Part shown: positions 24,935 to 27,480 of the stretch, one piece after another
How positions within the stretch are numbered: the first letter of the stretch is position 1
Layout of the letters: every line of letters starts with the position of its first letter
NCBI GenBank assembly: GCA_016932595.1
Contig: JAFGCP010000082.1
Coordinates: 1 to 37,959, forward strand
Direction of reading: 5' to 3'
Length of the DNA stretch: 37,959 bases
DNA from: Deltaproteobacteria bacterium
GTDB taxonomy: Bacteria; Desulfobacterota; WTBG01; CAIYCZ01; CAIRTM01
Translations under genes and position numbers: made by a program
Notes under the pieces: model-generated
Database searches by the model: none
What the model saw: only the letters and a program-made list of their open reading frames with translations
What the model was told of the DNA's origin: nothing

Positions 24935-25174
24935 ATGCAGAACAAGGACTATTCAAAACTTGACCTGAGCCATATACGAATCAGCCTTGTCCTCAAGTGC
25001 ATGATTGCGGTGTGGTCGTTCTGCATCGCCATTACCAGCGAGACGCATGCCTCGGCGGTCTTCTACCTTGTCATCTGCATTTTGTTTGCTGGCCTTTTTG
25101 TCTTCCAGCTGAGCTTTTATAATGAGCTGAAAAAAAGCAGGAGGGACAGTCTTGACGACCTGCACCGGAGTTGA
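24935..25174 (+). CDS. Small two-TM membrane protein
   Basis: 79-aa ORF with two hydrophobic helices; overlaps the next CDS. Confidence 0.65.
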   Translation: MQNKDYSKLDLSHIRISLVLKCMIAVWSFCIAITSETHASAVFYLVICILFAGLFVFQLSFYNELKKSRRDSLDDLHRS

Positions 25175-26039
25175 CCCCAGAGCATTTTTTAAAAGAGTTG
25201 TTTTCTCAGGTGCGGCGATAGCCTGCCTGTTCATTGCAGGAGGAGCCATGCAGCAAAAATGCGCCAGCTATCCGAAACTTGACCGGTTTGAGGTTCTCCA
25301 GTATCTGTTTCATCCGAGAAAGGAGCCTCCGTCAGAGCCCATGCAGGGCGCTGTGGATTATGCCATTGCCGTGGATACGGATGCCGTTATCGTCTGCAGG
25401 TTTTATCCTGCAGGATCCCGGGCGCCGGCCATACTTTTTTTTCATGGCAATGGCGAAACGGTTGAAGAGTATGCAGAGATCGCCGCGATGTATAATCGTC
25501 TCGGCATCAGCCTGCTTGCCGTTGAGTACCGGGGCTATGGCCGCAGCACCGGAAAGCCTGCTGCAAGCTCAATGATCAGCGATGCGCACAGGATTTTTAC
25601 CGAAGTCAGGAAATGGCGCATGCAGCAGAAACATGGAGGCCCCCTCTTTGTCATGGGCCGCTCGCTCGGAAGCGCCCCGGCCATCGAGCTTGCTGCCCGC
25701 TATGAGGCGGAGCTTGCGGGCCTCATCATCGAGAGCGGCTTTGCCTATACCGAGCCCCTGCTGAGGTTTCTTGGCGTTGACACGAAGGGCCTGGGTATCA
25801 CCGAGGCCGACTGCTTCGGGAATTTCGAGAAAATCAAGGAATTTAAAAAACCGCTGCTCGTTATCCATGCACAGCTCGATCAGTTCATTCCTGTATCGGA
25901 TGCGGAAACGCTTATGAAAAACTGCCCCTCCCGGCGAAAACAGCTGCAGGTGATTCCCCGGGCCGATCATAATTCCATTCTGGGTTTTGCGGGCTCAGAC
26001 TATTTCAGATTTATTAAACAGTTCATTGATGGGCAGTAG
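25152..26039 (+). CDS. Alpha/beta hydrolase with N-terminal membrane anchor (TTG start)
   Basis: FFHGNGETVEEY, nucleophile elbow GRSLGS, Asp in QLDQFIPV, His in ADHNSIL; AGGAGGG Shine-Dalgarno 6 nt before the TTG. Confidence 0.9.
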   Translation: MTTCTGVDPRAFFKRVVFSGAAIACLFIAGGAMQQKCASYPKLDRFEVLQYLFHPRKEPPSEPMQGAVDYAIAVDTDAVIVCRFYPAGSRAPAILFFHGNGETVEEYAEIAAMYNRLGISLLAVEYRGYGRSTGKPAASSMISDAHRIFTEVRKWRMQQKHGGPLFVMGRSLGSAPAIELAARYEAELAGLIIESGFAYTEPLLRFLGVDTKGLGITEADCFGNFEKIKEFKKPLLVIHAQLDQFIPVSDAETLMKNCPSRRKQLQVIPRADHNSILGFAGSDYFRFIKQFIDGQ

Positions 26040-26041
26040 CC

Positions 26042-26497
26042 ATGCAGCCCTGCGCGGACCGTATCAGCACGTTTTGTCCGGCTGTACCTGGCGAGCCCCG
26101 CCGCAGCAGGGAAACTCCGGCACAAACCCCGGGCGAAATCGACGAAGAGGCCTGCCGGTATGATGAAGAGGGGAAGGAGCCGTACTGGGAGGAAAAAATT
26201 CTCTGCCGGCAGTGCATGCAGGTAATAACCAGCCCGGCAGAGCGCATCGAGGTTAAGGGCTCACACCGCCATACATTCTCAAATCCCCTGGGCCTTCTTT
26301 TTCAGATCGGCTGTTTCAAGCGCGTAAAAGGCTGTGTTGATGCAAGCCCGCCTGAGGCCGAGTGGAGCTGGTTCCAGGGGTATGTCTGGCAGGTCGTGCT
26401 GTGCAGCGCATGCGCCACCCACATGGGCTGGCGCTACACAGGGCCGCAGGAGTGTTTTTACGGCCTCATCCTCGACAGGCTCATGCAGGCAAGCTGA
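26042..26497 (+). CDS. CULT-domain (cereblon thalidomide-binding-like) protein
   Basis: C55xxC58 and C121xxC124; HTFSNPLGLLFQIGCF; SWFQGYVWQVVLCSACATHMGWRY with Trp spacing of 6 and 14 as in human CRBN W380/W386/W400. Confidence 0.88.
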   Translation: MQPCADRISTFCPAVPGEPRRSRETPAQTPGEIDEEACRYDEEGKEPYWEEKILCRQCMQVITSPAERIEVKGSHRHTFSNPLGLLFQIGCFKRVKGCVDASPPEAEWSWFQGYVWQVVLCSACATHMGWRYTGPQECFYGLILDRLMQAS

Positions 26498-26507
26498 AAA
26501 TGAGAGA

Positions 26508-26535
26508 AGAATTCAGAAGCCGGAATCCAGGAGCC
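26508..26535 (+). repeat. Heptanucleotide repeat tract
   Basis: AGAATTC AGAAGCC GGAATCC AGGAGCC. Confidence 0.7.
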
Positions 26536-26617
26536 AAAACAAAAGGCATATAGTCATTCAAGGGTTTGCTTGTTTCTTTCCCCTGAGCTGATCCTGAAAC
26601 GTTTTTTCTCTTTTTCA

Positions 26618-26650
26618 TTCTGAATCCCGACTTCTGGATCCTGGCTTCTG
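26618..26650 (-). repeat. Heptanucleotide repeat tract, inverted orientation
   Basis: Minus strand: CAGAAGC CAGGATC CAGAAGT CGGGATT CAGAA. Confidence 0.7.
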
Positions 26651-26685
26651 TTTTTGTACAACCCTAATTTAATTTTCAACATACA

Positions 26686-27480
26686 ATGCAGAAGCAGTTC
26701 TTCACCCCGGAGCCAAGAATTTTCGCCCATCGCGGCAATGCCGCGCATTTTCCGGAAAACACGCTCCCCTCATTTCAAAGCGCTGTCGAGATCGGCGCCG
26801 ATGTGATCGAGACTGATGTACAGCGAAGCAGAGACGGTCACTTCATGGTCTTTCACGACGACACCATCGATCGGATTACCGAGGGGGCCGGAAGGGTAGG
26901 GGACCACACGCTTGAGGAGCTGAAGCGCCTTGATGCAGGCTATCGCTATTCTGCCGATGGCGATAGCTTTCCCTTTCGTGGCAAGAGAATAGCCATTCCC
27001 TCCCTTGATGAGGCCCTGCACGAGTTTCCGCAGCAGCGCTTTAACGTGGACCTTAAGACCGATGACCCATCTCAGGCTGCTGATTATTGCACCCTCATCA
27101 GGCGCTGCAATGCAGGGGAGCGGGTGCTGACGGCATCGGAATTCACCGGAAACCTCAAGGCGGTGAGAAGCCTGATGCCGGAGATGGCAACTTCGGCCTC
27201 GCACAAAGAGGTGGCGGGTGTTTTTTTTCTTTATAGAAGCGGTCTGCTTTTTACAAAAAACAATTTTGCAGCCGATGCCCTGCAAATACCCGAATTTTAT
27301 CGCCACTGGCATGTTGCAGCGCCAGATCTGATGCGCAGGATGCACAAAAAGGGGATCCGTGTCCATGTCTGGACAGTCAACAGGGAGGCCGACATGCGCC
27401 GCCTTCTGGATGCCGGCGTCGACGGCATCATCACCGACGACCCCCTCCTGCTCAAAAAGGTCATCGACTCCCGTGCATAA
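26686..27480 (+). CDS. Glycerophosphodiester phosphodiesterase family protein
   Basis: IFAHRGNAAHFPENTLPSFQSAVEIGADVIETDVQRSRDGHFMVFHDDTIDRITEGAGRVGDHTLEEL. Confidence 0.96.
   Translation: MQKQFFTPEPRIFAHRGNAAHFPENTLPSFQSAVEIGADVIETDVQRSRDGHFMVFHDDTIDRITEGAGRVGDHTLEELKRLDAGYRYSADGDSFPFRGKRIAIPSLDEALHEFPQQRFNVDLKTDDPSQAADYCTLIRRCNAGERVLTASEFTGNLKAVRSLMPEMATSASHKEVAGVFFLYRSGLLFTKNNFAADALQIPEFYRHWHVAAPDLMRRMHKKGIRVHVWTVNREADMRRLLDAGVDGIITDDPLLLKKVIDSRA

Follow-up and report, generated by a model that had tools for sequence, protein, structure and literature searches.

The CULT domain was described by Lupas and colleagues in 2015 as a beta-tent fold that includes a stand-alone bacterial group, "mainly from delta-proteobacteria" (PMC4287342). 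One such protein is MsCI4 of Magnetospirillum gryphiswaldense (MGR_0879; PDB 4V2Y, 5AMH and others), whose ligand cage is formed by P51, W79, W85, W99 and Y101 (PMC4287342). The affinity of MsCI4 for both thalidomide and uridine is in the low micromolar range. Uridine and deoxyuridine bind in the same way as thalidomide, thymidine and cytidine do not bind, and ligand binding is accompanied by folding of part of the domain (PMC4449219). Human cereblon (CRBN), which contains the same domain, recognises C-terminal cyclic imides that arise from chain cleavage or from the action of PCMT1 at C-terminal Asn, and these are its reported natural ligands (PMC11974815). The natural role of the cereblon ligand pocket matters widely, both for thalidomide-type drugs and for targeted protein degradation. 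Bacterial CULT proteins are used as crystallography stand-ins for human cereblon. Here we compare with these systems a CULT gene located at positions 26042-26497 of contig JAFGCP010000082.1 (GCA_016932595.1) from a Deltaproteobacteria bacterium. The whole contig, 37,959 nucleotides long, is referred to as the window, and all positions are given on its forward strand.

The best explanation of the gene as a whole, to which we assign a probability of about 0.5, is that its product is a zinc beta-tent (CULT) protein with a single domain, whose three-Trp cage accommodates a cyclic imide ring of five or six members. Cyclic-imide binding, perhaps to aged protein C termini, is the most likely role, with uridine-type ligands as the main rival.

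Fold and family of the window protein

The gene and its product are as follows.

26042..26497 (stop codon included), + strand: CULT-domain protein of 151 amino acids (translation; PDB phmmer; AlphaFold; Foldseek)

No start codon other than the ATG at 26042 lies in frame between the preceding stop codon and the first CxxC. The CULT domain occupies residues 53-149, and no second domain was detected by Pfam, the tail being predicted as disordered.

The window protein has the CULT fold and is homologous to MsCI4 and cereblon; we regard this as practically certain. A phmmer search of the PDB with the window protein matched MsCI4 at E 7e-24 and animal cereblons at E 7e-11 to 3e-8. A family profile built from 64 relatives strengthened these matches to 1e-34 and 3e-20, respectively. 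The same profile reached only 0.02 for yippee-like 5 and 0.07 for MsrB, and the protein is therefore assigned to CULT rather than to another beta-tent family. The overall fold and the zinc site are nevertheless common to the window protein, Yippee/Mis18 (PF03226), MsrB and the RIG-I regulatory domain (PMC4287342). The sole Pfam match was PF03226 (Yippee-Mis18) over the CULT region, at 21.5 bits against a family cut-off of 26.6 bits, and NCBIfam gave no match to the protein.

The first-pass annotation had named the beta-tent fold beforehand as one point at which its CULT assignment could fail. The AlphaFold model has this fold; its predicted local distance difference test score (pLDDT) is 95-98 for the domain, and the tail scores 40-61. 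The best Foldseek matches were ligand-bound MsCI4 structures, among them those with thalidomide and deoxyuridine, with a target-normalised template modelling score of about 0.9 and a root-mean-square deviation of about 1 to 2 Å; the model superposes on MsCI4 at about 1 Å.

Over the core, the window protein and MsCI4 are 41% identical, with the zinc knuckles and the P/W/W/W/Y cage in common. The N-terminal tail of the window protein is longer, disordered and acidic, with 54 residues before the first zinc Cys, whereas the phmmer-matched stretch of MsCI4 begins at its residue 24. In addition, Trp108 and Cys98 of the window protein replace a Phe and a Leu of MsCI4. Identity to the CULT domain of cereblon is about 28% by structure alignment, and the sequences align across the whole domain. 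In contrast to cereblon, the window protein has neither the LON domain nor the DDB1-binding region, only the 54-residue tail preceding CULT, and the position of human His378 is occupied by Trp. To our knowledge, a ubiquitin ligase is not expected in a bacterium.

Since the stand-alone bacterial CULT family was already published in 2015, the window gene is a new member only, and taken by itself it is a routine find. Likewise, the delta-proteobacterial distribution of the family, its structure and its binding of thalidomide and uridine are already in the literature (PMC4287342, PMC4449219). The interest of the gene rests on what bacterial CULT proteins do and on an N-terminal peptide found among its relatives.

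The Trp cage and the zinc site

Residue conservation was counted over 99 non-identical relatives. The segments that form the cage and the zinc site, together with a Cys pair, are listed below.

26204..26215, + strand: first zinc knuckle, C55-x2-C58; invariant in 99/99 relatives and aligned with MsCI4
26282..26293, + strand: segment containing P82, the counterpart of P51 in the MsCI4 cage; N 99/99, P 98/99, G 99/99
26312..26335, + strand: Cys91 and Cys98; C91 in 96/99, C98 in 92/99
26363..26389, + strand: W108-S-W110-F-Q-G-Y-V-W116, with the first two cage Trp, W110 and W116 (translation, phmmer, family counts)
26402..26413, + strand: second zinc knuckle, C121-x2-C124; 99/99 relatives
26429..26437, + strand: third cage Trp, W130, and Y132 (W99 and Y101 of MsCI4); W 99/99, F or Y at position 132 in 99/99

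Translation of the 151-residue open reading frame placed C55-x2-C58, W110-x5-W116-x13-W130, C121-x2-C124 and the RYT after the last cage Trp exactly where the first-pass annotation had read them. Its central claim, that this is a CULT domain of the bacterial kind in which the tri-Trp cage and the zinc-site residues are intact, is borne out by phmmer, the family profile, AlphaFold with Foldseek and residue conservation alike. The three cage Trp and the four zinc Cys do not vary in any of the 99 relatives. Between the window protein and MsCI4, the cage residues correspond as P82/P51, W110/W79, W116/W85, W130/W99 and Y132/Y101. The two CxxC pairs, C55/C58 and C121/C124, are predicted from the sequence to be the ligands of a single zinc ion.

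Conversely, the proposal that Trp in place of human His378 provides an unusual extra aromatic next to the cage did not hold. Among the relatives, position 108 (Phe77 in MsCI4) is F in 83, W in 13, C in 2 and Y in 1. Because 96 of 99 relatives have Phe or Trp here and MsCI4 has Phe, Trp108 was rejected as a special feature; bacterial CULT proteins usually have Phe at this position, and Trp is a less frequent variant.

The Cys91/Cys98 pair is clade-specific and nearly invariant among Desulfobacterota CULT domains, with Leu at the second position in MsCI4. No description of it was found in the CULT literature searched. The AlphaFold model places the two residues on adjacent strands, predicted at 86-92 and 98-100. 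By analogy with MsrB, which has a CULT-like fold plus a catalytic Cys (PMC4287342), the protein might be an enzyme with Cys91/Cys98 as a redox or catalytic center. The conservation of both residues and their placement on adjacent strands would fit such a center. However, Cys98 is missing from MsCI4 and CULT domains have no recognised catalytic residue (PMC4287342), and we consider this explanation very improbable.

Proposed role

Because its contact residues are nearly all conserved, the predicted cage very probably accepts rings of the glutarimide, succinimide or uracil type, like the cage of MsCI4. The ligand class proposed in the first-pass annotation, cyclic-imide or uracil-like, is reasonable as a prediction. 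We tentatively propose that the protein reads C-terminal cyclic imides of other proteins as its natural ligands, although we would give this somewhat less than an even chance. The cyclic imide end would arise from an aged or cleaved Asn/Gln terminus, or from the protein-carboxylmethyltransferase (PCMT) of this phylum. The three-Trp cage would then read this end of the protein, and the flexible acidic N-terminal tail might perhaps hand such proteins onward.

Supply of cyclic imides by PCMT is possible, because the enzyme is near-universal in the phylum. In an even phylum sample of 396 genomes, a PCMT homologue (TIGR00080) was found in 395 at E <= 0.001 and in 380 over the family cut-off, and the window genome also has one.

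Several observations weigh against the C-terminal reader. The near-universality of PCMT also means that its co-occurrence with CULT carries no information, and this line of support was dropped: CULT is present in 39 of the 396 genomes, against 380 with PCMT over the cut-off. The neighbourhoods of 80-odd CULT loci contain no conserved neighbour pointing to protein quality control. The candidate docking peptide of the relatives, described below, is degenerate in the window protein. Finally, recognition of C-terminal cyclic imides by a bacterial CULT protein was not found in the literature, and neither were papers on the function of bacterial CULT proteins, most subscription journals lying outside the search.

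Alternatively, the protein may be a sensor or carrier of small molecules of the uracil or uridine type, or of hydantoin or dihydrouracil. The cage would grip the imide edge of the ring, a disordered part of the domain would fold, and the change would be signalled to a partner. MsCI4, which binds uridine and deoxyuridine like thalidomide and folds partly on binding (PMC4449219), provides the precedent, and all contact residues are conserved in the window protein. Nevertheless, no pyrimidine-metabolism gene occurs as a general neighbour. A cytidylate-kinase-like gene lies near 15 loci, but on the opposite strand and in a limited clade. We therefore regard a uridine-type ligand as possible but, on balance, doubtful.

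The N-terminal tail

26042..26203, + strand: N-terminal tail, residues 1-54; predicted disordered (pLDDT 40-61), compared with the tails of relatives

The tail of the window protein is acidic, with 10 D/E against 3 K/R in its last 28 residues. In many relatives, about 10 residues after the start are followed by a short peptide, PhiPhi[RK]x[PS] (Phi, hydrophobic), and then by an acidic linker. Examples are LFRVP, FFRIP and LLRQP, and the peptide usually lies exactly 34 residues upstream of the first Cys. It is carried by the CULT gene at L030:3660-4082 and by many other CULT loci (L027-L099). No description of this N-terminal peptide was found in the CULT literature searched.

The pattern, which was picked after inspecting the tails, occurs in 46 of 100 tails, compared with 5.4 in shuffles (maximum 14 over 1000). 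Among 42 representatives at 60% core identity it occurs in 10 (shuffles 2.4, maximum 8 over 2000), and the shorter PhiPhi[RK] occurs in 29 (shuffles 14.6, maximum 24). In motif-bearing relatives, the ratio of nonsynonymous to synonymous polymorphism (pN/pS) falls from 0.87 in the leader to 0.38 in the motif; the linker has 0.56 and 0.41, and the core 0.20-0.25. This comparison supports selection on the motif only weakly, because the sequences were selected for motif presence, and that choice pushes the motif ratio down. One motif-bearing relative (L055) was modelled with AlphaFold. Its motif residues 10-16 stand outside the flanks with pLDDT below 50 (1-9 and 17-36), and neither strand nor helix is assigned to them; docking of the peptide on the CULT domain is therefore possible but not evident in this model. 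The motif is degenerate both in the window protein, with RSRETP at this position, and in its genus mate, with RCREAP.

A more specific form of the C-terminal reader would make the Desulfobacterota CULT proteins cereblon-like substrate receptors that work without ubiquitin. The cage would read C-terminal cyclic imides, the tethered PhiPhi[RK]x[PS] peptide would dock on a partner, for example an AAA+ protease, and damaged proteins would be removed. In the genus of the window genome, the peptide would then have decayed or been replaced. We consider this elaboration unlikely.

Distribution

The CULT gene is real, far from chance, and conserved within its bacterial family. A genome of the same genus contains a copy 74% identical to the window protein. 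The gene is present in 8 of 9 genomes of the family, the window genome included, and in both genomes of another family in the same order. In the GTDB genome collection, 177 loci encode relatives, and the 80 listed are mostly from Desulfobacterota. Cultured carriers include Desulfopila aestuarii, Desulfofustis glycolicus and Desulfosediminicola flagellatus. CULT is thus common in Desulfobacterota, cultured species included, and many of these proteins have a second conserved peptide outside the domain, which provides concrete material for testing the role. A phage, plasmid or viral origin was rejected, as searches of viral contigs, plasmids and phage records gave no CULT match.

Gene neighbourhood

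25152..26039, + strand: alpha/beta-hydrolase directly upstream of the CULT gene (Pfam Hydrolase_4, 1.2e-24)

Only 2 bases separate the hydrolase stop codon from the CULT start codon in the window. Three other genomes of the family (G001, G004 and G002) have the two genes in this order, with stop-to-start gaps of about 46-58 bases. This arrangement would suit a CULT protein that works with the hydrolase, for example as the ligand-binding subunit of an esterase or amidase with cyclic substrates. However, the pair is limited to the bacterial family of the window genome, and the remaining recurrent neighbours are functionally unrelated and subclade-limited. A partnership with the hydrolase is accordingly improbable in our view.

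These other neighbours come from clustering of the open reading frames around the 80-odd CULT loci. RmuC lies upstream in 13 loci and CysZ/EI24 upstream in 7, an ADP-ribosylglycohydrolase lies downstream in 7, and a 179-residue protein without a Pfam match lies near CULT in 7, each within a subclade. RmuC and CysZ/EI24 were identified by Pfam matches. A putative ClC-type channel, a CobA/HemD-like protein and an EF-G-like protein, recognised from their sequences alone, are likewise subclade-limited. A universal operon partner was rejected, since only clade-limited neighbours emerged from the clustering. With no neighbour general across the whole CULT family, the gene behaves as a lineage-conserved singleton.

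Two of these associations are close. In one Desulfobacterales subclade the ADP-ribosylglycohydrolase is directly or nearly directly downstream on the same strand (L030:4100-4870, L027:10463-11257, L033, L035 and L031). In another arrangement, also confined to one subclade, a protein of 179-184 residues without a Pfam match is directly or nearly directly downstream (L037:10429-10965, L042, L045, L049, L060, L064 and L099).

In the window, the CULT gene is followed on the same strand by genes for a glycerophosphodiester phosphodiesterase, a 151-residue open reading frame without an NCBIfam match and an SPFH (HflK-like) protein. A search for a promoter or terminator at the CULT gene gave nothing above chance. 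The ends of the intergenic region 26497-26690 resemble imperfect inverted copies by eye, with no inverted repeat over the tool threshold. Short parts of this region recur at four other positions in the genome, and it may be a dispersed intergenic repeat.
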